A DNA stretch of 64,000 nucleotides from Croceivirga radicis. Its GTDB lineage: Bacteria > Bacteroidota > Bacteroidia > Flavobacteriales > Flavobacteriaceae. Position numbers and translations under genes: made by a program. The DNA is taken from NCBI RefSeq assembly GCF_002072105.2, contig NZ_MTBC01000001.1:62001-126000 (forward strand), in the 5' to 3' direction. Of this stretch, positions 11,114 to 27,742 are shown one piece after another; the first letter of the stretch is position 1; every line of letters starts with the position of its first letter. Under the pieces are notes generated by a model that saw nothing but the letters and a program-made list of their open reading frames with translations, had not been told where the DNA came from and searched no databases.

Positions 11114-14100
11114 ATGAAAAAAATTACACTACTCCTATTTCTGGGCTTTACCTTACTACTTACGGCCCAAGAAAATGAAGGCGCCTTGTCTTCCAAAAAT
11201 TTAAAAGGTTTAAAATTTAGAAATATTGGTCCGGCATTTACTTCTGGGCGTTTGGCAGATATCGCTATAGACCCTACAAATGAAAGCATTATATATGCTG
11301 CCGTTGGTTCTGGCGGGGTTTGGAAAACAACCAATGCAGGCACCACTTGGGAGCCAATCTTTGATAATGAAACAAGCTATTCTATTGGCTGTATTACCAT
11401 AGACCCTAACAACCCACATAATTTATGGGTAGGTACTGGTGAAAACGTTGGTGGTCGCCATGTTGGTTTTGGAGATGGCATCTACCGTAGTACAGATGCT
11501 GGTAAAACCTGGAAAAATATGGGTCTTTCCAAAACAGAGCATTTATCCAAAATTATTGTTCACCCAGAAGATTCTAACACCATTTGGGTGGCAGCCCAAG
11601 GTCCACTATGGAGCAAAGGTGGGGAACGTGGTCTGTACAAATCTACAGACGGTGGTACTACTTGGAAAAAAACATTAGGAAACGAAGAATGGACAGGTGT
11701 TACTGATATAGTAATAGACCCTAGAAACCCAGATGTATTATATGCCGCAACTTGGGACAGACACCGTACCGTTGCCGCTTACATGGGCGGTGGTCCTGGT
11801 TCTGGTTTACATAAAAGTACAGACGGTGGTGAAACCTGGACAGCACTCACCAACGGTATACCTAAATCGAACCTAGGTAAAATTGGATTGGCCATCTCCC
11901 CTTTTAACCCAGATATTATTTATGCGGCTATTGAACTGGACCGCACCAAAGGTGGTTTATTTATTTCTAGAGATAGAGGAAGTTCATGGAGTAAGCAATC
12001 GGATATGGTTTCTGGAGGAACTGGACCGCATTACTATCAAGAGCTATACGCCCATCCACACCATGATGGTAGAATTTACCTAATGAACAATTATGTTTTA
12101 GTATCTGATGACCATGGTAAAACCTACCGTAGAATGAACAGGAATAAAACACATAGCGATGTGCATGCAATGGCCTTTAAAAAGAACGACCCTAATTACA
12201 TTTTAATGGGTTCTGATGGAGGTCTCTACGAAACTTATGATGACACCGAAACATGGCGTTATTTTGACAATCTGCCAATAACCCAATATTATAAATTAGC
12301 AGTAGATGATTCTGAGCCCTTTTATAATATTTATGCCGGAACCCAGGATAATGGCTCCCACAAAGGACCCTCAAGAACCATGCGCGAAGCTGGTATTTTA
12401 AATCGTGATTGGAAGAAGGTTTTAGGGGCAGATGGACATCAGTCTGCTATTGAGCCTGGCAATCCGGACATAACCTATGGTGAATTTCAACAAGGTACAT
12501 TATTTAGAATAGACCATAAAACTGGTGAAAGTGTTTACATACAACCACAAGCTGGTGAAGGTGAACCATACGAACGTTTCAATTGGGACGCCCCCATTCT
12601 AGTTAGCCCCCATGATCCCAAGCGTATCTACGTAGCCTCTTACCGCGTGTGGCGCTCAGATAATAGAGGAGATGATTGGACAGCCATATCGGGTGATTTA
12701 ACCAAAGGCCTTGAGCGTATTAAACAACCTATAATGGGTGGTTTACAAAGCTGGGACAACCCTTGGGATTTAAAGGCAATGTCTACCTTCAGCACCATCA
12801 CGTCTTTAGCAGAATCGCCTTTGCAAGAAGGTTTATTATATGCTGGCACAGACGATGGTATTATTCAAGTTTCTGAAGATGGTGGTGCTAACTGGCGTAA
12901 ATTTAACTACCAAAATTTAAAAGGTTTGCCTGCGAATGCGTTTGTAAATGATATTAGAGCAGATTTACATGATGCCAATACCGTTTATGCCGCCTTGGAT
13001 AACCATAAAAATGGCGACTTTAAACCCTACTTAATCAAGAGTACAGATGCCGGTAAAACGTGGAAATCTATTACTGGCAACCTACCCAGCAAACTATTGG
13101 TTTGGCGATTGGCACAAGATCATGTAGATAAAAACCTATTGTTCTTGGCCACCGAATTCGGCATCTATTTCACCAATGATGGTGGTAGCAATTGGATAAA
13201 ACTAGAAGGCGGTATACCTACCATCTCGTTTAGGGATATAGCTATTCAACGAAGAGAAAATGATCTAGTGGGTGCTTCTTTTGGTCGTGGTTTCTTTGTT
13301 TTAGATGATTATAGCGCATTAAGAAATTTAAATACAGCGGATTTAGCCAATAATGAAGCCTTACTTTTTGATACCAGAAAAGCCTATTGGTACAATCAAA
13401 TTGATGATGTTAGCAGCCAAGGAGCCAACCAATATGTTGCAGAAAACCCTAAATACGGTGCCACGTTTACGTATTTTATTAGAGACGAATACAAAACGTT
13501 GGAAGGTCTACGTAAGGATACCGAGAAAGAGTTATCTAAAAACAAGCAGAACATCCCTTTTCCTGGTTGGGAAGCCTTAGATGCTGAAGCTTTGGAAGAT
13601 GGGGTAATGCTTTTATTTACCATAAAAGATAAGTCTGGCAATGTTGTAAAGACCTTAACCACAAAACCAAAGAAAGGATTTAACCGAATAACTTGGGATT
13701 TATCTACTAACAACAAAGCTATGGTTCCCTTAGAAAAACCTAACCGGGAATTTGGAGGAACAGCCGTTTTACCGGGGACATACACAGTTAGTCTTGCTAA
13801 AATGCAAGATGGAAACCTAGTAGAATTAGCAGGTCCAAAAAACTTTGAAGTTGTACCGTTGTTAGAGCCTGCCTTAAAAGGTATTTCTGACACGGAAAGA
13901 ATTGCATTCAAAGAGCGTTATGAGGCATTTACTTTACGCTTAAATAAAACGAATTTACAGTTAGATAAGGCACAGAAAAGATTGGACGCCATGCAAAGAG
14001 CGTTCTTGTTGGCAGACAGCCAACCCAGTAACCTAGCAAATTCTTTATATAATCTTAAGAAAGAATTAAACGATTTAGAAATTCAATTGAATGGAAGTAA

Positions 14101-14332
14101 GAGTAAGGACGAAGTAGGCGCCAACCAAGCACCAACACCTAACGATGCAAGGTATTTGGGCAGAAGAGCCCTTGGTACCACTTATGGGCCCACAGGCAAT
14201 CACAGCAAAGCAATTGACAGGGCATCTAAACAGTTAAATACCATAGTACCTCAAGTAAATACAGCTTTGGCAAAAATTCCGGCATTAGAAAAACAACTAA
14301 CGGCTATTGGAGCGCCACCAATAGAAGATTAA
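11114..14332 (+). CDS. VPS10/BNR-repeat (sortilin-like) beta-propeller protein
   Basis: The 1072-residue protein starts with a signal peptide (MKKITLLLFLGFTLLLTAQ). The body has many Asp-box/BNR repeats of the type S-x-D-x-G-x-T-W (for example STDAGKTWKNM, STDGGTTWKK, SEDGGANWRKF, STDAGKTWKS), which form one or two beta-propellers like sortilin/VPS10 or oligoxyloglucan-binding exo-glycosidase folds. A C-terminal part (after about residue 800) has a FlgD-like beta domain and a coiled-coil helix pair. Such proteins are often annotated as glycosyl hydrolase, but no catalytic residues can be assigned. I chose the ATG at 11114 because an earlier in-frame start at 11066 would bury the signal peptide. 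Confidence 0.88.
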   Translation: MKKITLLLFLGFTLLLTAQENEGALSSKNLKGLKFRNIGPAFTSGRLADIAIDPTNESIIYAAVGSGGVWKTTNAGTTWEPIFDNETSYSIGCITIDPNNPHNLWVGTGENVGGRHVGFGDGIYRSTDAGKTWKNMGLSKTEHLSKIIVHPEDSNTIWVAAQGPLWSKGGERGLYKSTDGGTTWKKTLGNEEWTGVTDIVIDPRNPDVLYAATWDRHRTVAAYMGGGPGSGLHKSTDGGETWTALTNGIPKSNLGKIGLAISPFNPDIIYAAIELDRTKGGLFISRDRGSSWSKQSDMVSGGTGPHYYQELYAHPHHDGRIYLMNNYVLVSDDHGKTYRRMNRNKTHSDVHAMAFKKNDPNYILMGSDGGLYETYDDTETWRYFDNLPITQYYKLAVDDSEPFYNIYAGTQDNGSHKGPSRTMREAGILNRDWKKVLGADGHQSAIEPGNPDITYGEFQQGTLFRIDHKTGESVYIQPQAGEGEPYERFNWDAPILVSPHDPKRIYVASYRVWRSDNRGDDWTAISGDLTKGLERIKQPIMGGLQSWDNPWDLKAMSTFSTITSLAESPLQEGLLYAGTDDGIIQVSEDGGANWRKFNYQNLKGLPANAFVNDIRADLHDANTVYAALDNHKNGDFKPYLIKSTDAGKTWKSITGNLPSKLLVWRLAQDHVDKNLLFLATEFGIYFTNDGGSNWIKLEGGIPTISFRDIAIQRRENDLVGASFGRGFFVLDDYSALRNLNTADLANNEALLFDTRKAYWYNQIDDVSSQGANQYVAENPKYGATFTYFIRDEYKTLEGLRKDTEKELSKNKQNIPFPGWEALDAEALEDGVMLLFTIKDKSGNVVKTLTTKPKKGFNRITWDLSTNNKAMVPLEKPNREFGGTAVLPGTYTVSLAKMQDGNLVELAGPKNFEVVPLLEPALKGISDTERIAFKERYEAFTLRLNKTNLQLDKAQKRLDAMQRAFLLADSQPSNLANSLYNLKKELNDLEIQLNGSKSKDEVGANQAPTPNDARYLGRRALGTTYGPTGNHSKAIDRASKQLNTIVPQVNTALAKIPALEKQLTAIGAPPIED

Positions 14333-14356
14333 TACCGGTAAAGCCAACTTTAAATA

Positions 14357-14390
14357 AAATCCCCTTCTTTAAAAGAAGGGGATTTCTTTT
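14357..14390 (+). terminator. Rho-independent terminator after the BNR-repeat gene
   Basis: AAATCCCCTTC (14357-14367) pairs with GAAGGGGATTT (14375-14385) around a 7-nt loop, followed by CTTTTGTCTATTTTT. It separates the BNR-repeat gene from the next small gene on the same strand. Confidence 0.8.
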
Positions 14391-14405
14391 GTCTATTTTT
14401 AACCT

Positions 14406-14885
14406 ATGAAAGCTGCTACCCTTGCACAACTAAAAAAAGAATTGCAACATCTAGACCGTGAAGAACTTTTACAATTTTGTCTACGTTTGGGGCGGTTTAA
14501 GTTGGAAAATAAAGAACTTATTACCTATCTCTTATTTTACGCAGATGATGAAGACGGCTACATGGAAACAGTAAAACAACAGCTAGATAATCAGTTTGCA
14601 GAGATAAACACTACCAGCTACTTCTACATTAAAAAAAGTGTTAGAAAAATAGTAAAAGGATTAAAAAAGAACATTAGGTATTCTGGCAAAAAAGAAACCG
14701 AAGCCGAACTGTTATTGTACTTCTGCAAAAAGCTATTAACCATGAAGCCTTCCATTAAACGCAATAAGGTGCTAACCAACACTTATGAAAGGCAACTTGC
14801 CTTGGCCCAAAAAAAAATAAGCGGCCTACATGAAGATTTACAATACGATTTAAATCTATTACTAGAAGATCTTAAGTCTTTTTAG
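14406..14885 (+). CDS. Conserved hypothetical helical protein (DUF6155-like)
   Basis: The 159-residue protein is predicted to be almost entirely helical and soluble. It begins MKAATLAQLKKELQHLDREELLQFCLRLGRFKLENKELITYLLFYA, a pattern I associate with the Bacteroidota family DUF6155 (from memory, not searched). The middle is strongly basic (KKSVRKIVKGLKKNIRYSGKK), which could point to nucleic acid contact, but this is speculation. It follows a terminator, so it should have its own promoter. Its stop codon overlaps the stop of the convergent exopolysaccharide gene by 4 nt. Confidence 0.75.
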   Translation: MKAATLAQLKKELQHLDREELLQFCLRLGRFKLENKELITYLLFYADDEDGYMETVKQQLDNQFAEINTTSYFYIKKSVRKIVKGLKKNIRYSGKKETEAELLLYFCKKLLTMKPSIKRNKVLTNTYERQLALAQKKISGLHEDLQYDLNLLLEDLKSF

Positions 14886-17800
14886 AAGTTATACTTAAAC
14901 GGTTTTAAATGGTAGGTAAATCCTAAGTTAAAAGCATTAGAAAAGAAATTTTCTATGGTATAAAATTCTGCCCCAGCACTTACTGTAAAGTATTTACCAA
15001 TATTAGCGTTAAGGTTGGCCAAGTACCTTTCAAAATTTGGCTGATTCTGATTTTCATAAAAATAAGTTGCGCTGCTATCCAAGTAAAATTTGTCGTCTTG
15101 TTTACCAATTATAAGATGTACCCCCGCACCACCAATAAAACGTTTATCTGCTAACCAATACGGAAAACCATCTCTTTGGTCCTTACTTGCAATACCATAA
15201 GATGCCTCTGCTAATGGCCCCAATTGCCAATTGGCATTTACAGCTAACACGTTATAGGTTGTCCTTACCGTGCCCGTAGCCATAAAAGCAGCATCCGTAA
15301 AGTAATTACCCTCTAGGTTAATTACTTGGGTAAGTTTTGGAAATAACATCAATTCATTATAACTCTCCGCTGTTGCCATATAAATTCCACGCACATATCC
15401 TGGTCCTGTAGGGACTGGATTAAAACTCAGTTTATTGCTATAAAAGTTTTTTTCCTTTGCAAAACTTATGCTGGCAGCAGCGTGGAAAAATGTATTGTTA
15501 AAGTTATCCCCTTCTATCCTTGCCCTAAAGGTTAAATCGTATTCCTTGTTCCTATCGTTCTTAAAAATATATTCCAAGCCCAGTAAATTACGCTCCTCAT
15601 TATCTAGCGTATCTCCTATAAAGTTTATGGGGTATACAAAACCTCTAACACCTGCCAAAGCATGAATATTATTCTTATTATCCGTAAGATTATACCCTCC
15701 CTTAAAGTTGAGTACCGTTGGGTCTAACCTATCATTCATTGAGTTGCTCTTGAAAAAAACATCGTGGCCTTCTAAAAGTCGCTCTTTAGACCTTAATTCT
15801 GTTTTAGTATTATCACTAAATAATTTAGGATACTTACCTACCAAAAACATTTGTTCATTGATGGGAAGGTATTCTATATTTTTATTGATTTTGCCCCGTA
15901 ATTCAATGTAATTTTTTCCACTTGCAATTTCATTTGCAATTTCTGAAGCAAGAGACAAATCTCCCATATACAATAGCAGAGTAGCCATATGATAACGTAC
16001 TTCATTATCTTCTGGATGTAAATCCATATAATTGTGATAGACACGCCTCATTTTGGTAAAGCGCCTTACTTCGTAATTCCAAGTAAGCAAATCTTTAACG
16101 GGTACGGTTGTTGCGCAGTCTGACCATGCCAAGGCTCCCGTGTAATTTTCCCTATTTCCAAAGAGTATTGCTATTTTATCGGCAATAGATACAAGTTCCT
16201 TGGCGCAATAAGATTTATTTAGAAGCTCAGCATAAGCTCTATTTTCATCAGATTTAATTAAAATACCGTAATATTCTGCTGGGTTGGATTCTTTTAATTT
16301 TTCAAATTGGGTAGATTTTAAAAACCAAAAATCTCTAGTATCCCCATCTATAGCTTCAGAACAGTACGCCCAGGCCAAAGCATTGGAATAATCCAAGGCA
16401 TCAGCATAATACCAAGCCAATTCTGTTGCCATTTCCTTGTAATTTTCTTCACAAGGTTCAATAGTTGCCAAAGCTGTATTTAAGTCAGCTTCTTTATTAT
16501 CCAGTAAAAACTTTATGTATGCTTTTTGGTTTGCTCCATTAGCTGAAACCTTGCTTAATTGCCTATATGCTTCTTTAATATTTTTTAGATTGTCATCTGA
16601 GTAAAAAGCAGCTATATATTCATTTAAAAAATCTGTACTGCCTTGCTGGGTCTTAAGCATCCTATCAAACCAAAGTTTTTGTACGGCCATATTATTGTAA
16701 CCGTGTTCTTGGCCAATTGAAAGTACATTATGCAAAAAGGCAGAATCTTCTGAAGTTTTAAAATACTTATCAAAATAATCCCACATGCGCTCTTGTTTGT
16801 TGGCGCCTAACATTAAATCCGCGTATTTTTTCCAAAGAGAGACTGTTAATTTATTGCCTGCCGTAACATGTTTCTCCATTTCTTCTGCGGCCTTAAAGTT
16901 TTCTCCTGTATTTACCAGTTTTTCTAATTTCATGTTTAAGGGCAAAAACTGAAATTTAAATTCTGTAAAGGTTTTTCTTTCTGCTGCAATTCTGGCAACA
17001 ACAGTAGCATCATCCTCTCCTGATTTAGCTTTAAGTTTGCCTACGGCTATAAACGGATCATGAGTTTTAATTTGGTATAAATGACCATTTAAAATGGGAA
17101 GTTTGGTGAATTCTAGAATATTACCGGTTAATTCTTGTTCAAATTTAGAAGACTTTTCCGTTGGTACATAAGCAAACCACAAATGCTCTGTTTGTTCTTG
17201 ACCATAACTGTCTGAAAATACCATATGCACACCATCCTCATCTGTATGTTCATATTTTGCGTAGCGCCATTTAATGGTATACTCAGAACCGTCTTTAGCG
17301 GTAACAAAGCGGGTATAAGGGTATTTACTTTTAAATGATAATAACTCTTCTTCAAAAGTTTCATACAAACCCTTTTTCCCATTCTTAGTTCGCCAAGGTA
17401 GCTGGTTGGCATTTCTATAGCGGTAATGACCACTTGTTTTTTTATTAGAACCATCTGGTATTTGAAAAACATCGTCTGGGTGCAAAAAGTGGTTCCAGAT
17501 TCCAGTAAATAAAAACAAAGAATGAATCTCAATTTTTAAATCGTCCGAAATTTCAAAACCACTACTTATCCTAGGATAATCAAAAAAATGGGGATTCCAT
17601 CTATCCGGGTCATATTCCCTATTACTACCCCTATCAAAATCTCCAAAATATTGACTCTGCATGTATCTTAAGGTAGGGAACGCTTCTTCTAACTTGGCCA
17701 ACCCTAAACTATCAATAACATTAGATGGAGGAACATAAGAAACCGGCAATGCGCCAAATTTTGCCGTTTTCCATTTTTTTTCTGCCGAGTTCAATGCCGT

Positions 17801-18880
17801 AACCATATAATCCGGATTGGGCCATTCTTCCTTGGTCAAAGAAACATGGTTATAACCATGCAAACCTAGTTCGTGACCGTTATTTAGCAACTGCCTACCA
17901 AACCAATTACTTATTTCTTCTTCATAACCGCTACGGTTAAACCTATTGGCTTCCCATTCTGTAAAGATAAAGGGAGGCTTTACATTGTAATTGTAATCAA
18001 AAGCTGGGTATGCGGTATACTTAAGCTCTAGCCTCTCTGCCAAAGCCAACATGTCTGGCCACCAAACATCTGTAAAGTATTTAGACATGGTAATATTCTG
18101 ATTGCTTTTTACAGGTTCCTTGTATATATTGTATACAGGCGCAGGAAAATCATCTAAATGTACATTGGCCACATTAGAAACAGGGTAAGGCATACCCTCT
18201 AAACCTAACAACAAACTAGAAAACAATACACCCCTAGAAACCTTGTAAAAGTTATCGTCCGTATTATGCACAATCACTTTTCCCCTACCAATCTTATGCT
18301 CAAAAATTAAAGGGTAAGTTTTATTGTTTTTAGCGGTTACCCAAACTTTTAAATCATCTTTAAAGTTGTCTGCAGCAAAACCGTTGTGAGCATAATTTAA
18401 TCCTGGATGAACTTTACCTTTAGCTTCCGGAAATAATTCTTCCTTTAAGAAATAGCCTTTAGCAGCTACATCCCTATTTAATTTGTACGTAGGATCCATA
18501 CCCATTAAATATGCCATGCGTTCATCTGCATTAACATTTACCAAAAAGAGACTACCGCCTCTGGCAACAAAAGCATGTAAGGTGTCTATAGCTCTTTCAT
18601 TTAACTCAAATGTATTTGAAACGCAGAGTAGTTTTACCGAGTTGGGTATTTTTGTGGTCAGGTTAAATTGATCATTACCAATTGTTGTTAAGGGCAACTT
18701 TGCATAATCTGTAACCTTTGCCAAATTGGTATACGTATTGCTTTTTTGACCTATATAAGCTAAAACGGGATTGGAATTATTACGTTTAACCCTACTCCAA
18801 TCTTTTTGCAAATCCTTACTTGGTTGACAACCATAAACCAACACCAAAACAAGACATAAAAACTTAAATCCCTTGGTCAT
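14882..18880 (-). CDS. PelA-deacetylase/PelB-type fusion: lipoprotein with Rossmann-like, CE4-like deacetylase, TPR and outer-membrane barrel domains
   Basis: This 1332-residue protein begins with a lipoprotein signal (Cys18 in VYGCQ). Residues about 30-230 look like a glutamine-amidotransferase/reductase-like domain. Residues 235-480 are a polysaccharide deacetylase-like (DUF2194-like) domain with Asp243-Asp244 in HLDDFP and His341/His345 in HGYNH, the DD and HxxxH metal ligands of CE4-type enzymes. A beta-rich stretch follows to about 620, then TPR-like helices (630-1045), then a strand-rich C-terminus ending in an aromatic residue (YHLKPFKYNF), as in outer-membrane barrels. In Pseudomonas the first part corresponds to PelA without its hydrolase domain and the last part to PelB. 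The start overlaps the upstream membrane-protein gene by 17 nt. Assignment to Pel is inference from domain order and neighbours. Confidence 0.75.
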   Translation of the reverse strand: MTKGFKFLCLVLVLVYGCQPSKDLQKDWSRVKRNNSNPVLAYIGQKSNTYTNLAKVTDYAKLPLTTIGNDQFNLTTKIPNSVKLLCVSNTFELNERAIDTLHAFVARGGSLFLVNVNADERMAYLMGMDPTYKLNRDVAAKGYFLKEELFPEAKGKVHPGLNYAHNGFAADNFKDDLKVWVTAKNNKTYPLIFEHKIGRGKVIVHNTDDNFYKVSRGVLFSSLLLGLEGMPYPVSNVANVHLDDFPAPVYNIYKEPVKSNQNITMSKYFTDVWWPDMLALAERLELKYTAYPAFDYNYNVKPPFIFTEWEANRFNRSGYEEEISNWFGRQLLNNGHELGLHGYNHVSLTKEEWPNPDYMVTALNSAEKKWKTAKFGALPVSYVPPSNVIDSLGLAKLEEAFPTLRYMQSQYFGDFDRGSNREYDPDRWNPHFFDYPRISSGFEISDDLKIEIHSLFLFTGIWNHFLHPDDVFQIPDGSNKKTSGHYRYRNANQLPWRTKNGKKGLYETFEEELLSFKSKYPYTRFVTAKDGSEYTIKWRYAKYEHTDEDGVHMVFSDSYGQEQTEHLWFAYVPTEKSSKFEQELTGNILEFTKLPILNGHLYQIKTHDPFIAVGKLKAKSGEDDATVVARIAAERKTFTEFKFQFLPLNMKLEKLVNTGENFKAAEEMEKHVTAGNKLTVSLWKKYADLMLGANKQERMWDYFDKYFKTSEDSAFLHNVLSIGQEHGYNNMAVQKLWFDRMLKTQQGSTDFLNEYIAAFYSDDNLKNIKEAYRQLSKVSANGANQKAYIKFLLDNKEADLNTALATIEPCEENYKEMATELAWYYADALDYSNALAWAYCSEAIDGDTRDFWFLKSTQFEKLKESNPAEYYGILIKSDENRAYAELLNKSYCAKELVSIADKIAILFGNRENYTGALAWSDCATTVPVKDLLTWNYEVRRFTKMRRVYHNYMDLHPEDNEVRYHMATLLLYMGDLSLASEIANEIASGKNYIELRGKINKNIEYLPINEQMFLVGKYPKLFSDNTKTELRSKERLLEGHDVFFKSNSMNDRLDPTVLNFKGGYNLTDNKNNIHALAGVRGFVYPINFIGDTLDNEERNLLGLEYIFKNDRNKEYDLTFRARIEGDNFNNTFFHAAASISFAKEKNFYSNKLSFNPVPTGPGYVRGIYMATAESYNELMLFPKLTQVINLEGNYFTDAAFMATGTVRTTYNVLAVNANWQLGPLAEASYGIASKDQRDGFPYWLADKRFIGGAGVHLIIGKQDDKFYLDSSATYFYENQNQPNFERYLANLNANIGKYFTVSAGAEFYTIENFFSNAFNLGFTYHLKPFKYNF

Positions 18881-20846
18881 AATTAAATATCATTTCGTTA
18901 ATGCCACTAAGATTAGGCGCATTTATTATTTCTAAAACTTTTAAGTGTTCTGTTTCCTGATAGGTTTTTACGGTACGCCCTTTTGCTTTGAGGTCTTTAA
19001 GTAAGGTCTCTATACCTGTATAAGTTTCTTCTTGGGTATGAAACAAGGATTCTGAAGATTTTTCTTTGGTAAGCACAACAAAAACACTTTCTGGAAGAAT
19101 CTCATCATCTTTAATTTTAACCGCACCTCCTAAGGCTTTCTTAGCATGAAAAACCGAATCTCTTTTGGCATATTCTGCCACAAATTGTTGATGTGACAAG
19201 AACAGATGCTCCTTTTGTGCTAGCTTATAACCATAGTAATTGTTAACAACTACGTAACTGTTCTGAAATTGATTTTGGTACAACTTATCATACAGGTTTA
19301 CAATTTCTTTTTTTAACTCTCCCGTTTTGGCAGAATAAGTATTGGTAACATCTACCATTAAGGTAGTAATGGTTAAAAAGGCCAAGACAACTATTGTACT
19401 AACTCTTTTAAATTTTACCCAAGCGGTTTTCTTAAGTAAAATCATATCCAAAATCCTTAAAATAGCAAATAATGAAATTGCAAATTGTATAGGATAAAGT
19501 ACCGTAAGTGCTTTAAAAAACAAATCTATATCCATCCATTTAAAGCCAATTACACTAATATTAAATGCTAATAAAAAGAAAATGGTAAAAGATAAATTAG
19601 GTCCAATATTCTTCTTATTCAGCCGTAAGAAAACAAGTCCTAAAAGCCCTACACTGGCGGTGATTTGGTAGAGTAGCAATAAAGTGTTAAAGTCTACCAA
19701 CAAAGATGGAAAATAAGAATATGTATCTACGCTTAAAATGTTACTAGTAAAGAAAGAATATATATCTATTTTCCTGATATAACATACCAAAAGTTTTATA
19801 CCCACCATAAGTAGAATAGCCAGTAGATAGGATAGAAAGCTTTTTAAAATATATTTTTTATTCCTACCAAAATCTACTAAGGACGCCACCAATAAAATTG
19901 GCATTAGCATAAATAGAACGTAGTAATTAATCAATGCAACCGCACTAGCCATTAAGAACTGAACCAAAAAATATTTTGTTTCAAAATGTGCTATTTCTTT
20001 TGGTCTGCACAGAAAAATAAAAAATATCAAAGCAAAGAACAATCCTAAATAAATAGGAGAATGTTCCATAATTATAGTGGGGTTTACTGGCAATAAATAA
20101 AAAACTGTTGCAAAAAACATAGTTCCTACAAAAGGTAATCGCCATCTAGATCCCGTAAAAGTTGCAATTAAATAGAAAATTACGGCGCAAAGCATAAAGG
20201 CTTCTATAAGACCAAAAGTATATAAAGCCATCTCCTTACTTATACCTGTTAATTTTGCATACACGTTTACAAGTGCCAACTCTCCTACCACACGGTAGTC
20301 GTCTATTAGCCAAAAATTAGCATCAAAATTTTTAACGATATCCAAAGATTCTAACCAAGATTTAGATAAGGTGTAACCATCTAAACCTACATAACCAAAC
20401 CGCATAAGAATGGCTACAAAACCAATACCCAATAATAACAAGGTAGGTCTATGAAATTGTTTCGGCATATAGTTTTTTAGTTCTTTATGCCATAGTTTTT
20501 TTAAATTACGTTCCCGCTTTTCTAAGAAAATAAAAAAAGCAATCAGCATACGCCTTTTTAGATTTTTATCTTTTCCTCTAGGATTTATTAGTGAACCAAT
20601 TTTAAAGTAGTTGTAGAAAGAAATACCAAATAACAATAAGATTAGGGTAAACGTGCTATACATGTTTAATTGTACTAAAACAAACATACCCAGTAGTAAT
20701 GCAGCCCCGTATATTGCGGTACGTCTAACAAAATAAGAGTAAGTATAATTTTGTAAATGTTGCCTAACCGCAAATTGATGTACCACCAACAAGCCTAATA
20801 ACAATAGGATAAGTCTAAAAGGCGCTATCAAAAAATTATCGAACAT
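18864..20846 (-). CDS. Polytopic membrane protein of the Pel-like operon, unknown function
   Basis: I do not recognise this 660-residue protein by family. About 13 hydrophobic segments can be counted between residues 4 and 505, with a cytosolic loop rich in Lys/Arg after the third (about 82-130). A soluble C-terminal domain of about 155 residues follows. The first large loop carries the acidic segment FDANFWLIDDYRVVGEL (about 174-190), which resembles the acidic loop of GT-C glycosyltransferases; this is suggestive only. There is no GAF or GGDEF domain, so it is not PelD, and no TPR like PelE. Its position between the GH114 gene (9-nt gap) and the exporter gene (overlap) suggests it belongs to the synthesis/export complex. 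Confidence 0.8.
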   Translation of the reverse strand: MFDNFLIAPFRLILLLLGLLVVHQFAVRQHLQNYTYSYFVRRTAIYGAALLLGMFVLVQLNMYSTFTLILLLFGISFYNYFKIGSLINPRGKDKNLKRRMLIAFFIFLEKRERNLKKLWHKELKNYMPKQFHRPTLLLLGIGFVAILMRFGYVGLDGYTLSKSWLESLDIVKNFDANFWLIDDYRVVGELALVNVYAKLTGISKEMALYTFGLIEAFMLCAVIFYLIATFTGSRWRLPFVGTMFFATVFYLLPVNPTIIMEHSPIYLGLFFALIFFIFLCRPKEIAHFETKYFLVQFLMASAVALINYYVLFMLMPILLVASLVDFGRNKKYILKSFLSYLLAILLMVGIKLLVCYIRKIDIYSFFTSNILSVDTYSYFPSLLVDFNTLLLLYQITASVGLLGLVFLRLNKKNIGPNLSFTIFFLLAFNISVIGFKWMDIDLFFKALTVLYPIQFAISLFAILRILDMILLKKTAWVKFKRVSTIVVLAFLTITTLMVDVTNTYSAKTGELKKEIVNLYDKLYQNQFQNSYVVVNNYYGYKLAQKEHLFLSHQQFVAEYAKRDSVFHAKKALGGAVKIKDDEILPESVFVVLTKEKSSESLFHTQEETYTGIETLLKDLKAKGRTVKTYQETEHLKVLEIINAPNLSGINEMIFNYDQGI

Positions 20847-20855
20847 TCGTTATTC

Positions 20856-21662
20856 TTATTGTTTATATTGATTTAGGGCGATGTTGCTCACAAAATAGGA
20901 GAATGGCAATCCGCTAAGTCTTTTATGAACTTGCTGGGTCACCTCTTCCTCTATAGCATACTCCACCACCAGAACTTCAATCTTAAATTCATCTTTAGCT
21001 TGTAGAAGTTGTTGCTTTCTTTGATTAAAATCTTGCTGCTTTCTTAACCGATACGCTTTTTCCTTAAAGTTGTAATCCGTAGCAACAGATTCCACCAATA
21101 CCGTACTTATAAGTTGATGCGTTTTTGGTAATAGATCCAATCCCCCATTTTGCACCCAAATGTTAGGTTTAGCCTCTTGATCTATGGTATGGATCAAGTG
21201 TAGCACCTCATTTTTTAATTCTGGTAAATTTCCCCATGCACCAACATTATCCATGGTGTCTAAAAACAAACCATCAAATCCTTTTTGCAATAGGGCCAAG
21301 GCATGCTCTTTCATAAGGTTTAATGCTCTATTGTCTTTTAAGTTGATATAACAACTGCCCCAAGTTTCATTTTCTCCCATGGTGTATGGTGCAAAATTTT
21401 TATAATCCTCATCGTCTTTACTTATCTCTGTAAAGCTTATGTATGCCAACACCAAATTGCATTTTGCTTTTAATGCTTTTACCTCTTGTGCATTGTACAG
21501 GTTCCCTTCTACAATTAATAGCTTTAAATTATTGGGTAACAAATCGGGGTTTACCTTGGCATATGTTACCACAAAATCTTGCTGCGCCCTGGTTTTTATA
21601 CTCCAGAGCCCGGCCATACCTAATAGGGTTATCATCACTATATTTTTTTTAATAGGCTGCAC
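20856..21662 (-). CDS. GH114-family endo-alpha-1,4-polygalactosaminidase (PelA hydrolase-like)
   Basis: The 268-residue protein has an N-terminal signal segment (MQPIKKNIVMITLLGMAGLW) and a single TIM-barrel GH114 domain in the usual order: LAYISFTEI near 72-80, GFDGLFLDTMD at 128-138 (catalytic Asp135 expected) and VLVES with Glu191 as the likely second catalytic residue. GH114 enzymes cut alpha-1,4-galactosaminidic bonds, and this is the hydrolase module found at the N-terminus of PelA. Here it is a separate gene. The start at 21662 overlaps pelG by 14 nt; a later ATG at 21635 would lose the positively charged signal region, so the first is preferred. Confidence 0.85.
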   Translation of the reverse strand: MQPIKKNIVMITLLGMAGLWSIKTRAQQDFVVTYAKVNPDLLPNNLKLLIVEGNLYNAQEVKALKAKCNLVLAYISFTEISKDDEDYKNFAPYTMGENETWGSCYINLKDNRALNLMKEHALALLQKGFDGLFLDTMDNVGAWGNLPELKNEVLHLIHTIDQEAKPNIWVQNGGLDLLPKTHQLISTVLVESVATDYNFKEKAYRLRKQQDFNQRKQQLLQAKDEFKIEVLVVEYAIEEEVTQQVHKRLSGLPFSYFVSNIALNQYKQ

Positions 21663-23250
21663 TGTAATGAAAGTCTAGACGATTAAAAAAATTGTGTAAA
21701 TGTTTATGGGTAAGAACGGTAAAGACTATTGCTCCTAGCAACATACCATACACGCTTAAATCGTGTGTAAACGTTCTGCTCAACACAAAACCAACACTAA
21801 AATTCACCAAAGTTGCAATTGCTAAAGCACGCAAACTAGGTCTCACTACATTTAGGGTAAACATGTAAAGTACATTTAGCATGCCCCAGCTCAAGAAAAT
21901 ATAACCTATACTACCCGCAATGGATACGTGCATACTTGTTGTTGCCAACTCCTCGCCAAACTTGGCAATATAACCCCAAGGTTCAGTAACTAAAAGGTAG
22001 ATAACCACGCTAGAAATTATAGCGGTAATCCAAAGAATAAGAATGTGGCTTCTGTACAACTTCTTAAAATGATTACCAAAAATTTTTCTATCTGTAAAAG
22101 CTAAGCCTTTTTGGTTTTGGTCTAATTTTCTACTAAATTCTGCAATGGCATATTCACCAACGCCAACGAGTGCAAAAAACATAAGAATGGCCAAATCCAT
22201 CCCTATTTCATAATTTTTCTCGTACAATAAGGGAAACTTAAAACTGTTGGTCCAATTTGCAGACCAAGCAATTATACGATCCATAAATACAAAGACGTAC
22301 AAAAGCATACCATAAAAGAAATATGGGTAGTTATTATAAAACACTTTTATTTTAGATGGCCGCTCGTATTCTCTTTTATCTACACCTATTTTTTGTTTAA
22401 AAAAATACCAGATAAATGCCAGATTAAACGTGATAGCTGCTGCAAGTCCAAGAAAATGGCTTACATAAACATGCACCTTAAAAATCTCGTGCAAGACTAA
22501 GGCTATAATTGTGGCCAATGTTATGGTAATGGTTACCGCCCATCTCTTTTTAAGCGGATAAAAAGGCGCTATAGTTAATAATAAAGTGGCCAGCATAAAC
22601 GAATACCCACACAAAACCAACATAAAAGATATAGGAAACAAGTGTAGTAGAAAATTGGTCAAAAACAAGAATAGTACTCCTCCTAAGAAAAGTTTTATTC
22701 CAGATTGGGTATAGGAATAAATTAGATGTCTTGTTTTGGCATATTTCTTATGCTCCCAATAGAAAAAAGCCTGTCTACCCATTAATTGTACAAAACCACC
22801 AGAGATTACAAAACCAAAGATTACCCCTAGTACTACGGCAGTAGATTGTACGATATTAAATTTAAGATAGGTCCAAAGTGAATAATTAAAATAAATAATT
22901 GCAAATACCTGTATAAATATCGGCAACAAATAAAACAAGCCTATTCCGTAATACTTGGCAAACCAATTAAGTTTTACTTTAGAATAGTCATTAACTGGCA
23001 GGTAGGCTTGCGTTCGCTGTTCTTTTTTTTCTGCCGTATTTTTAACGTCTTCCCTAGGCATAGCTACAATCTGATTGTAAATAGCAGCTGCCAAATCTTG
23101 TAAGGAGTCAAAACCGTAATCTTGTTTGGTGTCTTGATTACGGATACCAAAAGATTCTAGCGTTGCATAAACTACCAATAAACCTTGGGGTTTACCCACT
23201 TGCGCAACTACCTTAGTGCTCAAATCATTGTACCTATCTACTGTGTCCAT
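21649..23250 (-). CDS. pelG: PelG-like exopolysaccharide transporter with N-terminal extension
   Basis: The 533-residue protein has an N-terminal soluble part of about 95 residues and then about 11-12 membrane helices. The helical part has the PelG look, with a charged connection GFVQLMGRQAFFYWEHKKYAKTRHLIYS, and it lies directly after a PelF-type gene. PelG belongs to the MATE/MOP-like polysaccharide transporters and works with PelF in the inner membrane. Known PelG is about 456 residues; the extra N-terminal region with NQDTKQDYGFDSLQDLAAAIYNQIV is unusual. The ATG overlaps the pelF stop by one base (TAATG), which shows translational coupling. Confidence 0.8.
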   Translation of the reverse strand: MDTVDRYNDLSTKVVAQVGKPQGLLVVYATLESFGIRNQDTKQDYGFDSLQDLAAAIYNQIVAMPREDVKNTAEKKEQRTQAYLPVNDYSKVKLNWFAKYYGIGLFYLLPIFIQVFAIIYFNYSLWTYLKFNIVQSTAVVLGVIFGFVISGGFVQLMGRQAFFYWEHKKYAKTRHLIYSYTQSGIKLFLGGVLFLFLTNFLLHLFPISFMLVLCGYSFMLATLLLTIAPFYPLKKRWAVTITITLATIIALVLHEIFKVHVYVSHFLGLAAAITFNLAFIWYFFKQKIGVDKREYERPSKIKVFYNNYPYFFYGMLLYVFVFMDRIIAWSANWTNSFKFPLLYEKNYEIGMDLAILMFFALVGVGEYAIAEFSRKLDQNQKGLAFTDRKIFGNHFKKLYRSHILILWITAIISSVVIYLLVTEPWGYIAKFGEELATTSMHVSIAGSIGYIFLSWGMLNVLYMFTLNVVRPSLRALAIATLVNFSVGFVLSRTFTHDLSVYGMLLGAIVFTVLTHKHLHNFFNRLDFHYSAAY

Positions 23251-24797
23251 TAAGCTAATTGAATCTTTTTTAGGGGTAATTTTTCAATTTGGGGAACAGG
23301 CAACGTCAAAGACTTGTATTCTTTTGTAAAGAGTGTAATAAACTGCTCTATAGTAAATAGTTCCAAAACCCTTTCTCTACAGGCCCCTCCCATTTTTTTT
23401 CGGAGCGTTTCGTCTCTTAAAATAGAAATAACTTTTTCTGAGATACCTTCTAAATCCCTAGGTTTACAGATATAGCCACAAGCTGGTGTCAAGGCTTCTG
23501 ATACGCCACCAACATCTGTGGCCACTACAGGTATACCACAGCTCATAGATTCGATTACCGTATAAGGAAAACCTTCAGAAATTGAGGTAAGTATAGAAAT
23601 ATCGCCCTCTAAAAATAATTTTTCCGGTTTAGCATGGAAACCAGCAAGTTTAAAATGGTCTTCTAATGCTAGTTCGGCAATTAAATTTTGGCATTGTTCC
23701 GTATACTCTGGAACCGCATCTTTATTGCCATACACTAAAAAAAGCACATTAGGAATAGATTTGCGTACTTCTGCGCAAACCTTAATCATGGTAATAATAT
23801 CTTTTAAATCGAATATCCTAGCCGCTGCTACTACCGTAGGGCGTTCTTTTTTGCTACTAGTCTTAGCAGGAACAAATTTTGATGCTTCTACCCCGTTATA
23901 AACTACACTTACTTTTTCCTTTTGCGCACCATAACGAAGTGCCCAATCTATATTAAATTTACTCACCGTTAAAATACGATCGCACTCCCTATATGTTAAG
24001 CGTGTTAACATTTCGGAAAAAACGATTAAAAGTCTTTTTAAAAACGGTGAATACGCCGTTTTACTTATTGCCAACATACGTTCTCTAATAAACACCCCAT
24101 GCTCTGTAAGCATTGTTTTTGAGCCGTATTTTTCTTTATTTTTTAGCGCAGGTATAATTCCCGTACCTGCAATAGTTAAGTGGGTAATAGCTGCTTTTGG
24201 TGGATCTATGGCCAAAGGAATCAAAAACCGATAAATTAATCGGATACCCATACTCATGTCTTGCAGGCTAGCACTATTAAGCTCTTTTTGAGGCCAAATG
24301 TTAGCTATACAGTAATTAAAACAATTCCAGACAGACTCGCTTCTTAGCGTAGATTTATAGTCATAATTGTTAAAAAACTGCCACATTTTAATAAAGGCTT
24401 GTTTTATAGCCTCTAACTCGGCATTTGTTTGTGGTGTGTCCTTAAAAGTATTTTCTAGAAAGACCTTAAAATGAGGTACAAATAAATTTTGAACGTTCTC
24501 ATATGTGGTAAGCTCCCTACGCATAAGAATGGTCTTATATTCTTCATTATAATCCACACAATCATAAGGTTCTTCTGGAGACCAAACCGGAATTTGCACT
24601 ACCTCTTTTACCGAATTGCCCAAATCATATAACGGTTCATATTCTACATCTGCGGTGAGTGCATACAAGCTAAAATCAAAATCCTTAATGTTTTGGGTTA
24701 GGTAATGCGCCCATGTAGACACCCCGCCGCCTTTATATGGGTACGTACCTTCTGTAACAAGAAGTATGTTCTTATTTATTTTAGATGGGGATGGCAT
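23250..24797 (-). CDS. pelF: PelF-like GT4 family glycosyltransferase
   Basis: The 515-residue cytosolic protein is a GT-B fold glycosyltransferase of family GT4. The N-terminus has VTEGTYPYKGGGVSTWAHYL, the donor-binding half has the E-x7-E motif at Glu408 and Glu416 in EGFPYTVIE, and CGIPVVATDVGG follows. The length and the insertion before the first HGVFIRER segment match PelF, the enzyme that polymerises the Pel polysaccharide from UDP-sugars. It is the second gene of the operon; 118 bp separate it from the upstream GH114-type gene and its stop is coupled to pelG. Confidence 0.88.
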   Translation of the reverse strand: MPSPSKINKNILLVTEGTYPYKGGGVSTWAHYLTQNIKDFDFSLYALTADVEYEPLYDLGNSVKEVVQIPVWSPEEPYDCVDYNEEYKTILMRRELTTYENVQNLFVPHFKVFLENTFKDTPQTNAELEAIKQAFIKMWQFFNNYDYKSTLRSESVWNCFNYCIANIWPQKELNSASLQDMSMGIRLIYRFLIPLAIDPPKAAITHLTIAGTGIIPALKNKEKYGSKTMLTEHGVFIRERMLAISKTAYSPFLKRLLIVFSEMLTRLTYRECDRILTVSKFNIDWALRYGAQKEKVSVVYNGVEASKFVPAKTSSKKERPTVVAAARIFDLKDIITMIKVCAEVRKSIPNVLFLVYGNKDAVPEYTEQCQNLIAELALEDHFKLAGFHAKPEKLFLEGDISILTSISEGFPYTVIESMSCGIPVVATDVGGVSEALTPACGYICKPRDLEGISEKVISILRDETLRKKMGGACRERVLELFTIEQFITLFTKEYKSLTLPVPQIEKLPLKKIQLA

Positions 24798-24875
24798 TGT
24801 TCATAGTTAATGGACAACAAAAATCCACCTGCAAATAGCCAATAACAAAATTTTAGGATTATAAGCAGATTACAT

Positions 24876-24907
24876 CTACAAACAACATCAGAGTTAGAGA
24901 TTTGTAG
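24876..24907. repeat. Inverted repeat between the permuted GH114 gene and pelF
   Basis: Seven-base arms CTACAAA (24876-24882) and TTTGTAG (24901-24907) enclose 18 nt within the 118-bp gap. There is no T-run after it, so it may be an mRNA hairpin or a protein site; evidence is only the symmetry. Confidence 0.3.
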
Positions 24908-24915
24908 GAAAACGA

Positions 24916-25944
24916 TTAATCTTCAAAGTATTCAAAGGCATCGACAATATCCAAATAAACACCGTCGAACTGAGAAGACAGAATCAAGTTTAAATAAGAA
25001 TCTGGATTGTATATAATAGTATTTTGCCAGTCTTGCTCCCAATATTTTACTTTAAAATTGCCTGGCCAATTTGGATTTTCATCTGCCAACCAAACAGGAG
25101 GTTCAAAATCCCAATTACTATCCCAATAATAACGGTAATCCTCTGCTTCGCCAATAGACATGTACGCAATAACTTTACGTGTACCTCCATTAGCTTTAGT
25201 TTTTAAGGCAACAATATCTTCCGCGGTAAGTTGTTGCTCAGTAGCAAAAAACGCATCTAGGATAAAAACGTCATAATTTGTAGCCTGCAGGGCTGCCAAC
25301 CAAGCACTTTTAGAAGAAAAAGCAGCGTAATTTAAAAAGAATAGATGGTTTTGGGCATCAGATAAAAGCCCAATATTATTGGTGTTTTCATTAGGTAAAG
25401 GATAAGCTCGCGTAGGTATTACGTCTAATTCTCTTTCCGTAGCCACAAAATGAATAAACCCTCTTTCTTGGGCATTACTTATACTAGTATTTATTTTATT
25501 GTTAGTACGGCAATAATCGGTTACCAATATGGCATTACCTTCCGCTTTAGACTTTTCTAAGTAGTTTAATAGATATCTAGTTCTACTATTACCAGTGGCC
25601 GAGTTATCCCTGGGATCACCATACCAAAGCGACTCTTGCCCGTGACCGTCTATTGCATTTAAATAATCTATAGCTAATTCCCCATCTACTGTACCATCTA
25701 GGGTCACTAGTTCTACACCATTTTGTGGAATAATGTTGAATTCTGGATTTTTTTCTTTGGCGTAACGCGATATTTCTATAACAAAAGCCCGCATTTCGTC
25801 TCTATAAAAGGTAGCACTCAAAGGTTGTTCTTCTGTAGGTATCATGACTTCCTCTTCAAACTCTTGTGTAGTTTGGGAACAGGTAAGAAAAAAGACTCCC
25901 ATTAATACTGAAAAAATAAAACCTCTGTGTAGCATATATCGCAT
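24916..25944 (-). CDS. GH114/TM1410-type lipoprotein with permuted domain order
   Basis: The 342-residue protein is a candidate lipoprotein (Cys22 in FFLTCSQ). Its sequence is that of the TM1410-type endo-alpha-1,4-polygalactosaminidase group, but the halves are swapped. Residues 47-180 hold what is normally the C-terminal half (EISRYAKEKNPEFNIIPQNG, then GQESLWYGD with Glu104, then a reLD-like end). Residues 200-342 hold the usual N-terminal half (KVIAYMSIGEAEDYRYYW, WPGNFKVKYW, and FDGVYLDIVDAFEYF with Asp332/Asp335 at the very end). It is the first gene of the Pel-like operon. I chose the ATG at 25944 because an upstream in-frame TTG at 25971 overlaps the -7 element. Confidence 0.8.
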   Translation of the reverse strand: MRYMLHRGFIFSVLMGVFFLTCSQTTQEFEEEVMIPTEEQPLSATFYRDEMRAFVIEISRYAKEKNPEFNIIPQNGVELVTLDGTVDGELAIDYLNAIDGHGQESLWYGDPRDNSATGNSRTRYLLNYLEKSKAEGNAILVTDYCRTNNKINTSISNAQERGFIHFVATERELDVIPTRAYPLPNENTNNIGLLSDAQNHLFFLNYAAFSSKSAWLAALQATNYDVFILDAFFATEQQLTAEDIVALKTKANGGTRKVIAYMSIGEAEDYRYYWDSNWDFEPPVWLADENPNWPGNFKVKYWEQDWQNTIIYNPDSYLNLILSSQFDGVYLDIVDAFEYFED

Positions 25945-25956
25945 AAATTCAGCTTT

Positions 25957-25964
25957 CAAAGATA
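25957..25964 (-). promoter_or_regulatory. -7 element of the Pel-like operon
   Basis: TATCTTTG on the minus strand fits TAnnTTTG and lies 12 nt before the ATG at 25944. A -33 TTG is not found at the usual distance (only CTG at about 16 nt), so this promoter may need an activator. Confidence 0.5.
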
Positions 25965-25989
25965 ATCGCAAATTTTAGACCAGAAATTT

Positions 25990-26015
25990 TTATGCCATCC
26001 ATATTCATGGCATAA
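25990..26015. promoter_or_regulatory. Palindrome just upstream of the Pel-like operon promoter (candidate activator site)
   Basis: Perfect 9-bp arms TTATGCCAT (25990-25998) and ATGGCATAA (26007-26015) flank 8 nt. The centre is about 40 bp upstream of the -7 element, the place where an activator would bind. It lies between this operon and the stop of the ZIP gene, but the bases after the hairpin on the minus strand are AAAATTT and not a T-run, so it is a poor terminator for ZIP. Confidence 0.45.
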
Positions 26016-26071
26016 GGCAGCCTCATTTTTAGCACAAAAACCTAAAAAGTTAGCCTAGCTATTTTCAAAGC

Positions 26072-26893
26072 CTAACCCAACCCTACGTCTAAGGTCATCA
26101 TAATAACAAAACCAGCAATGAAGCCCATGGTAGCAATATCTGTGTATTTATCTTGTTGCGTTTCTGGTATAACTTCTTCTACTACCACAAAAATCATTGC
26201 TCCTGCGGCAAAAGCAAGCGCATAAGGCAATATAGGTTCAAATGTGAGTACCGCCCAAGCACCTAAAACACCCGCAATGGGCTCTACAATAGCAGAGGCC
26301 TGCCCATACATAAAACTTCTTCTTCTGCTTAAACCATGCCTACGCATTGGCACAGCCACTGCAAAACCCTCCGGAAAATTTTGCAAACCAATACCCAAAG
26401 CCAAGGCAACGGCACCACCAATGGTAGCTCCTTCAAACCCAGATGCTACGCCTCCAAACAGTACACCAACAGCCAAACCTTCTGGTATGTTGTGCAAGGT
26501 AATGGCCAATACTAAAAGAACGGTTCTATGCCATGGGGTTTTAATTCCTTCTGCCTCATCAGTTTTAAAATTGATGTGCAAATGGGGCAATATCTTGTCT
26601 AACCCAAAAATAAAGGCTGCTCCAAGTAAAAATCCAATTGCGGCAGGTATTACCTTAACAAAACCCTCTCCCGGACTCATTTCTATTCCCGGAGCCAATA
26701 AACTCCAGAAACTAGCGGCTACCATAACCCCACCCGTAAAACCAAGCATACCGTCCATGATAGAGCGCCTAGGGTTTTTAAATAAAAAAACCAATCCCGC
26801 TCCAGCGGCGGTTAAACCCCAAGTAAATAAAGTAGCATATAAAGCTGCTAAAATGGGGTCTATACGTTCAAAATAGGAGACAATTGCTTCCAT
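26072..26893 (-). CDS. ZIP family divalent metal transporter
   Basis: The 273-residue protein has about eight membrane helices. The two metal-site helices are clear: HNIPEG (in LAITLHNIPEGLAVGVLF) and QNFPEGFAVAVPM, with a further EVIPE near the end. A histidine-containing loop PHLHINFKTDEAEG lies before them. ZIP proteins bring Zn2+, Mn2+ or Fe2+ into the cytosol. The gene starts directly after the stop of the MntR/DtxR-type regulator (no gap), so the metal sensor and the transporter form one operon; the metal itself cannot be told from sequence. Confidence 0.92.
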   Translation of the reverse strand: MEAIVSYFERIDPILAALYATLFTWGLTAAGAGLVFLFKNPRRSIMDGMLGFTGGVMVAASFWSLLAPGIEMSPGEGFVKVIPAAIGFLLGAAFIFGLDKILPHLHINFKTDEAEGIKTPWHRTVLLVLAITLHNIPEGLAVGVLFGGVASGFEGATIGGAVALALGIGLQNFPEGFAVAVPMRRHGLSRRRSFMYGQASAIVEPIAGVLGAWAVLTFEPILPYALAFAAGAMIFVVVEEVIPETQQDKYTDIATMGFIAGFVIMMTLDVGLG

Positions 26894-27553: not shown

Positions 27554-27677
27554 TTACAGTATTGTCATCTAAAATCAGTATTAAACAAACTCAATAGCAA
27601 AAGGTTAAGACCACAAAACAAATACTATTTAGCTAATTCCAATAATAAATTACAAGAAATAACAGCTTTAGTTTGAA

Positions 27678-27707
27678 TTGACACAAAAATACATTTTTAT
27701 TTGTCAA
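27678..27707. promoter_or_regulatory. Imperfect palindrome, candidate metal-regulator operator
   Basis: Arms TTGACA (27678-27683) and TGTCAA (27702-27707) are perfect, and the AT-rich centre keeps partial symmetry. It ends 10 bp before the -7 element of the TonB receptor gene and lies in the space shared with the MntR/DtxR-type regulator gene. A bound repressor would block RNA polymerase here. Confidence 0.5.
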
Positions 27708-27717
27708 ATTGTATTTT

Positions 27718-27725
27718 TAGTTTTG
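27718..27725 (+). promoter_or_regulatory. -7 element of the TonB receptor gene
   Basis: TAGTTTTG matches TAnnTTTG and lies 17 nt before the ATG. The nearest TTG upstream (27701-27703) is only 14 nt away, shorter than usual. Confidence 0.45.
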
Positions 27726-27742
27726 TCTAAATATTAATTTAT

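Follow-up and report, generated by a model that had tools for sequence, protein, structure and literature searches.

We analyse a six-gene operon in a 64,000-nucleotide stretch of the Croceivirga radicis genome (contig NZ_MTBC01000001.1, positions 62,001 to 126,000; hereafter the window, in whose own coordinates positions are given). An earlier note, made from the letters of the window alone, described this region as a rearranged exopolysaccharide operon related to the Pel system. The six open reading frames (ORFs) that it named are all present, on the minus strand, between 14882 and 25944. In reading order, they encode a lipoprotein (24916-25944, with an ATG at 25944; the mechanically called ORF begins at TTG 25971), a predicted PelF glycosyltransferase (23250-24797), a PelG-type transporter (21649-23250), a small glycoside hydrolase (GH; 20856-21662, GTG start), a multi-transmembrane (multi-TM) protein (18864-20846) and a last, long gene that joins a deacetylase to a tetratricopeptide repeat (TPR)-like region and a probable barrel (14882-18880). 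The overlaps that had been reported are found between PelF and PelG (1 nt), between PelG and the GH (14 nt) and between the multi-TM and last genes (17 nt), while gaps of 9 nt and 118 nt separate the GH from the multi-TM gene and the lipoprotein from PelF.

To collect relatives, an alignment of PelG was scanned against genome contigs, which gave 248 stretches and 181 relatives; the nearest 80 loci, mostly from Flavobacteriaceae with some Roseivirga and unplaced metagenome-assembled genomes, were kept. The order PelF, PelG, GH, multi-TM, fusion recurs in 75 of these 80 loci, and the other five (L078, L080, L104, L122, L132) are cut off by contig ends. PelF lies directly before PelG in 80/80 (the loci having been found through PelG), the overlap between PelG and GH is conserved in 76 of 77, and the spacing between operon genes is short across loci. 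A core gene is split into two ORFs at two loci (the fusion in L092, PelF in L109). Because the same five-gene order keeps recurring, the operon is more than a chance arrangement, and the description "rearranged" or "shuffled" has to be given up: this is the standing order of the lineage, though in one locus (L043) the GH gene precedes PelF. The operon is present in many genera of Flavobacteriaceae (Flavobacterium, Maribacter, Salegentibacter, Mesonia, Aquimarina and others). PF11997, a family that PelF matches, occurs in 27 of 395 sampled genomes of the phylum. A single-sequence query, which misses distant members, finds the multi-TM protein in 5 of 149 sampled genomes of the family; one of these five matches is weak and partial, and the 20 kb fetched there contain no pel gene.

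Searches of the window genes against Pfam and NCBIfam give the clearest answer for PelF. The protein scores 154.7 bits against the NCBIfam PelF model NF038011 (cut-off 100 bits) and also matches PF11997 (DUF3492), and we identify it, as the earlier note did, as a PelF, a GT4 glycosyltransferase and the predicted polymerase. Its EX7E motif (E408/E416) is kept in all 79 relatives of at least 400 aa. In a tree of 27 rows, the window PelF joins those of other Bacteroidota and then those of Deinococcus, Streptomyces, Kocuria and Thermus, and a branch of 1.96 with support of 100/100 separates this clade from the PelFs of canonical operons; the tree is a midpoint drawing only, in which four rows are long and several compositions biased. 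The Deinococcota and Actinomycetota PelFs belong to seven plasmid loci (L142, L146-L149, L157, L158; five are in the tree), taken from a tblastn search of plasmids with PelF that returned 31 records, of which 19 were examined, two of them without annotation.

The transporter is recognised through its relatives. PF16933, the Pfam PelG family, matches 10 of the 20 members of the window PelG alignment (best E 2e-9), and a profile of these 20 proteins aligns collinearly with six canonical PelGs over almost the whole length (E 3.3e-4, probability 38%), with about 100 additional N-terminal residues outside the match. A plain hmmsearch with the PelG profile found none of the canonical PelGs. On the relatives and the profile together, we read the protein as a divergent PelG that carries an additional domain at its N-terminus (approximately residues 1-75, at 23026-23250 on the minus strand). 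A profile of this domain matches 80/80 Bacteroidota PelGs and 7/7 of the membrane partners that adjoin PelF in Deinococcota and Actinomycetota (with 17 sequences searched, E 1e-8 to 0.015; two of the Deinococcus partners match weakly), and 0/10 canonical PelGs (E 1 or worse). The ten canonical loci are four with an annotated PelD, two with a GAF protein and four from Rhodobacterales without an annotated PelD, one of which (L159) begins at the start of its record.

Both GH genes match the GH114 family of Pfam, as had been proposed for each of them. For the small GH, the nearest solved structures are those of PelA (phmmer, 9cgy at E 3.9e-7 and 5tcb at E 5.4e-5), and its D135 and E191, kept in 77/77 relatives, align with PelA D160 and E218. 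Here and below, catalytic residue numbers are counted along printed alignments; for the PelA glutamate, PMC12054363 prints Glu223 and PMC12022489 mutates E218, and we adopt E218. We assign the small GH as a predicted secreted hydrolase related to the hydrolase domain of PelA, of the GH166/GH114 type. The label of the lipoprotein needs correction. Its residues 257-349 align with TM1410 residues 51-138 and its residues 58-158 with TM1410 151-241 (phmmer), so that relative to TM1410 the halves of the barrel are swapped, with 58-158 as the C-terminal half and 257-349 as the N-terminal half. We interpret it as a GH191 (TM1410)-type galactosaminidase domain that is circularly permuted. E113 and D341, its catalytic pair (counted on the 351-aa ORF that starts at 25971), are kept in 26/26 relatives. 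The lipoprotein adjoins the operon in only 26 of the 80 loci (17 on the same strand, 9 divergent) and is therefore an accessory gene. The permuted lipoprotein has a nearly full-length match (E 5e-66) in a Cetobacterium pel locus, to a protein (L143 7190-8089) encoded two genes ahead of DUF2194; a Deinococcus GH191-type protein has the usual barrel order. A naturally circularly permuted barrel of the GH191 type is found, then, at pel loci of two phyla.

The last gene matches PF09960 (DUF2194) with E 1.6e-69. Along the minus strand, it consists of a CBM114/CE26-like deacetylase module (17213-18880, residues 1-556, with lipobox Cys18), a TPR-like helical region (15791-16960, about residues 641-1030) and a probable outer-membrane beta-barrel (14885-15775, residues 1036-1332). 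Residues 51-474 match the Bacillus cereus deacetylase PelADA (9zau; phmmer E 8e-40), and the catalytic residues named in PMC13254593 (DD, HxxxH, Arg and HPDD) align with those of 9zau. The corresponding D243, D244, H341, H345, R437, H467 and D470 are kept in 74/74 fusion relatives of at least 700 aa, P384 in 70 of the 74, and Cys18 in all seven members of the smaller fusion set. Five of these seven members have weak TPR_14 matches (best E 0.0093), and the region has a helical periodicity of 0.111 against 0.037 +- 0.019 in shuffles. In the seven-sequence profile, the C-terminal 300 or so residues have a beta periodicity of 0.163 (0.077 +- 0.033 in shuffles) and 13 candidate strands; the window barrel sequence alone has a weak beta periodicity, 0.229 against 0.160 +- 0.045, and three known PelBs give 0.253, 0.229 and 0.329 against about 0.16 +- 0.04 in the same test. 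Many outer-membrane barrels end in an aromatic residue, and the window fusion ends in Phe. We read the last gene as a PelADA-type deacetylase and TPRs in one lipoprotein, whose C-terminal part is probably an outer-membrane beta-barrel, a PelB-like exporter. Of the deacetylase, TPR and barrel that the earlier note had proposed, the deacetylase is confirmed and placed with the Bacillus PelADA type in sequence, the TPR signal is weak and the barrel is probable.

The same fusion occurs in three further families (five genomes; the most distant, L155, fits in part) and in a fourth (L042). It lies directly after the multi-TM gene in four of the five further-family genomes and after three other genes in family f31, where the TPR and barrel parts match the profile only piecemeal. 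When Fusobacterium nucleatum is grown with Porphyromonas gingivalis, a DUF2194 gene (log2 -6.0) heads the list of lowered genes in Table 2 of PMC9848294; this gene may be a pel deacetylase.

The multi-TM protein has no match in Pfam or NCBIfam. Counted as 13-TM in the earlier note, it shows 14 hydrophobic segments, of which one is at threshold, in a profile built from 59 sequences, with a loop charge that alternates (from hydropathy and charge), a predicted periplasmic loop of 52 aa after segment 4 and a predicted periplasmic C-terminal domain of 162 aa. This layout of loops and C-terminal domain is that of GT-C enzymes. D156, in the long loop, is found in 47/47 sequences of the window's lineage, while the other 12 of the 59 have N, H or S at this position; D439 is kept in 58/59, and D441 is also marked. 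The family DUF6541, which we take to be GT-C-like, matches one of the 59 sequences (L057; also G215, the same protein) at 25.7 bits, under its cut-off of 29. A profile comparison with DUF6541 gave E 0.2 but was poorly built, with an open frame of the match in two of seven rows, and the 59-sequence profile found nothing in the PDB. The protein is possibly GT-C-like. The suggestion that it replaces PelD and PelE finds no support, since it shows no homology to either: profile comparisons give E 0.3 for PelD and 0.56 for PelE (the latter from four sequences). A feature that the PelD-less clade does share is the N-terminal domain of the PelG-like protein. The multi-TM protein was also considered as a homologue of the roughly 700-aa genes at the Deinococcota and Actinomycetota loci, which it does not match.

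How could such an operon be controlled? We searched 26 operon-bearing genomes (completeness is not given for 12) for GGDEF domains, and 24 have none, among them the genome of C. radicis itself, which is 99.97% complete. The PelD-GGDEF family (PF16963) has no match in this genome and none over cut-off in the 26 (two fall below it, at E 0.84 and 0.99), with models that are insensitive to PelD. None of the six operon genes matches PelD, GAF or GGDEF. No PelE-like gene lies within the operon (the rest of the genome was not searched for PelE), and no gene of the size of PelC lies between its genes (the genome was not searched with a PelC model). With no GGDEF match, the genome has no known way to make cyclic di-GMP (c-di-GMP); known c-di-GMP control is thus excluded, and control must be by something else. 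The earlier note's view that no c-di-GMP receptor is visible and that regulation differs holds, as does its placing of the operon in a Pel-related system: the PelF lies within the PelF family, the transporter is related to PelG through its relatives, neither falls outside the PelF and PelG clades, and the search for a distant PelD, insensitive as it is, returned none.

We therefore favour, with a probability of about 0.72, a c-di-GMP-independent Pel-type system for polysaccharide synthesis and export, the chemistry and function of whose polymer we infer. PelF would polymerise a hexosamine chain, most likely alpha-1,4-GalNAc from UDP-GalNAc (galE, elsewhere in the genome, counts in favour), and the chain would cross the inner membrane through PelG. 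In the published model, PelD and PelE are part of the polymerase complex, which c-di-GMP switches on, and PelA docks on PelB, possibly aided by PelC (PMC12345266, PMC12022489, PMC12141448). In the operon studied here, the N-terminal domain of PelG may dock or activate PelF, as PelD and PelE do in other systems. Once in the periplasm, the chain would meet the lipid-anchored deacetylase, which forms one polypeptide with a TPR guide and the probable outer-membrane barrel; deacetylation and export may thus be linked covalently, where other systems rely on the binding of PelA to PelB with PelC. The free PelA-hydrolase-like enzyme would trim the chain, and the accessory GH191-type lipoprotein might do so at or near the surface; for both, it is the family that the alignments give, with activity and place predicted. 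The multi-TM protein would be a constant inner-membrane partner, perhaps a GT-C-like enzyme that acts on the chain. Interaction of PelA with PelB enhances deacetylation (PMC12022489), and PelC may help PelA (PMC12141448); a covalent deacetylase-exporter fits both reports and could make PelC dispensable, and a natural fusion of the two is independent support for direct PelA-PelB coupling. The operon belongs to the Pel kind as a variant and is not categorically new. It seems to work without PelC, PelD, PelE or c-di-GMP and so offers compact material on the minimal needs of Pel, it points to a Pel-like matrix in many genera of Flavobacteriaceae, and it shows how a Pel biofilm machine may be built and run differently.

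Several observations weigh against this reading. The window PelG protein alone has no Pfam or NCBIfam match, so the transporter named in the earlier note is invisible in that sequence by itself, and against five proteobacterial PelGs (without Cetobacterium) the PelG profile reaches only E 0.0097. The fusion profile reaches no significant match with PelB (E 0.0096, confined to the TPR part), which is why "PelB" is assigned by architecture and periodicity, and 64 of 70 fusion relatives lack a C-terminal aromatic residue (6 have one). GGDEF domains do occur in two of the 26 operon-bearing genomes, at six places in G159 (family f13) and at one in G385 (f31). The four Rhodobacterales loci combine a canonical PelG with the absence of both an annotated PelD and the N-terminal domain; the domain is for that reason not the sole way to dispense with PelD, and the idea of it as a strict stand-in for PelD is weakened. 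Finally, the multi-TM protein could mean a further step that changes the product.

This last point leads to the best of the alternatives, in which a Pel-type machine, with a PelF and PelG far from the canonical ones, makes a different polymer, not a Pel-like galactosaminan, and has a multi-TM protein that attaches a lipid-linked sugar or joins repeat units into a polymer. The long, supported branch that parts the window PelF from those of canonical operons speaks for it, and so does a constant extra protein with a layout like that of GT-C enzymes and an Asp in its first long periplasmic loop throughout the lineage (47/47). Against these stand the other enzymes of the operon: the studied members of both the hydrolase and the deacetylase families act on alpha-1,4-GalN/GalNAc, though the family papers report no activity for TmGH191 itself (PMC12054363, PMC12022489, PMC13254593), and the catalytic residues of both hydrolases and the deacetylase are kept in all relatives counted. 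We judge a different polymer to be unlikely. Far less probable is a normal Pel system under c-di-GMP control, with PelD, PelE and PelC encoded at other places in the genome. PelD sequences diverge fast, and HMMER failed to detect the GGDEF domain of B. cereus PelD (PMC7112168), so that a negative search for PelD is weak on its own; the genome, however, is without any GGDEF match as well as without a PelD-GGDEF match, and no operon gene resembles PelD, GAF or GGDEF. Equally hard to credit is a catabolic locus that degrades the galactosaminan of other organisms, since for all that Bacteroidota often cluster GH and esterase genes and three of the six genes here are hydrolytic, PelF immediately precedes PelG at every locus in the PelG-based set and no gene of the six matches SusC or SusD.

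Outside the window's family (in families f24, f13 and f31) the operon varies. In f24 (six genomes) and f13 (one) PelG and the GH are separated by a gene for an HD-domain (HD_5) protein: L046 5504-7126, L047 12733-14355, L048 5574-7148, L049 5611-7209, L051 5639-7240 and L052 5563-7176 in f24, and L044 5584-7215 in f13. None of the five f24 genomes that were searched (G173, G235, G223, G416, G506) has GGDEF, so this HD protein may not act on c-di-GMP there. Upstream of the operon, L046 and L044 have a response regulator, and L046 also has a hybrid kinase. In the single f31 genome (L043), the locus whose GH gene comes first, GAF-SpoIIE and GAF-HD genes (15762-19338) lie between the multi-TM and fusion genes. 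A second, shorter PelF paralogue of about 395 aa stands ahead of PelF in L046 (10349-11539) and L043 (9346-10551), similar ORFs occur in other f24 and f13 loci, and the two paralogues included in the tree fall outside the other PelFs. At L051 11774-15589 there are parts of a second copy of the operon, with matches to the multi-TM, GH, PelG and PelF proteins, and a C-terminal fragment of PelG lies upstream of the lipoprotein at L008 16063-17016 (G135).

Directly upstream of the window operon, at 26072-27553, are genes for a ZIP metal transporter and a DtxR-type regulator, the latter named from sequence and not from a family search. Where the lipoprotein is on the operon strand, DtxR is upstream on the same strand in 15 of 17 loci, with ZIP in 14. 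We set metal control aside: the gaps range from 4 to 6164 nt, other genes sometimes intervene, and all these loci are from Flavobacteriaceae. A scan for sigma-70 promoters found no more sites than in shuffles. Matches to the Bacteroidota -7 box (consensus TAnnTTTG) are present in the 180 nt ahead of pelF at 42 of 77 loci, compared with 13.6 +- 3.4 in shuffles (the loci are related); the exact box is absent upstream of the window's own pelF, and the full two-box pattern is found in 1 of 77 loci, with 0.9 in shuffles. Rfam, at gathering cut-offs, has no match in window 14000-28000.

Beyond the single operon, we propose tentatively, at a little less than even odds, a second deep class of Pel-type machines without PelD and PelE that spans Bacteroidota, Deinococcota and Actinomycetota, in which a small N-terminal domain fused to the transporter would dock or switch PelF and make c-di-GMP needless, and in which, in Bacteroidota, the deacetylase-exporter fusion would make PelC needless. 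The Deinococcota and Actinomycetota loci also encode proteins of about 700-770 aa (L142 17823-22388, L146 9717-11864, L148 17667-19787, L147 9912-12002, L149 9684-11885). Those that were inspected have DxDD- and NHTxxH-like motifs, by eye resemble secreted deacetylases and are reminiscent of Agd3, the fungal galactosaminogalactan deacetylase. None of the matches listed from the open-access literature describes an operon like this one. The word Bacteroidetes is absent from the main text (supplements not covered) of the operon surveys PMC7112194 and PMC7112168, and PMC8305213 has a table listing Pel genes in an order with PelA-PelG and mentions Bacteroidetes only elsewhere.

Of the systems with which the operon can be compared, the plasmid loci of Deinococcus, Streptomyces, Kocuria and Thermus have a PelF that stands next to the Bacteroidota clade in the tree and a multi-TM partner with the N-terminal domain of the window PelG, have GH114-type genes annotated nearby in six of seven cases (not L157) and carry no annotated PelD. 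They differ in that the transmembrane part of the partner is not clearly PelG, and the genes tested from L142 and L146-L149 have no match to the DUF2194 fusion or the window multi-TM protein. The pel operon of Streptococcus, with a class IV PelD that lacks GGDEF, also runs without c-di-GMP; streptococci nevertheless keep PelD (TM and GAF) and PelE (PMC12345266), whereas we found no PelD-type protein here. The B. cereus operon pelDEADAFG resembles that of the window in PelF, in PelG, in a hydrolase-free CE26-type PelADA and in a hydrolase encoded by a separate gene, but it has PelE and a c-di-GMP-binding PelD, and its PelADA has three domains and neither TPR nor barrel (PMC7112168, PMC13254593). 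The PelG of the Fusobacteriota relative L143 is without the N-terminal domain. With pelABCDEFG of Pseudomonas aeruginosa and the plasmid operons L140, L141, L144 and L163, the window operon shares the PelF/PelG core, a PelA-type hydrolase, a deacetylase, and TPRs with a probable exporter. Compared with these, its PelA is split, and the deacetylase is closest to another carbohydrate esterase (CE) family and fused to the probable exporter; the operon also does without PelC, PelD and PelE and adds an N-terminal domain on PelG and a multi-TM gene.

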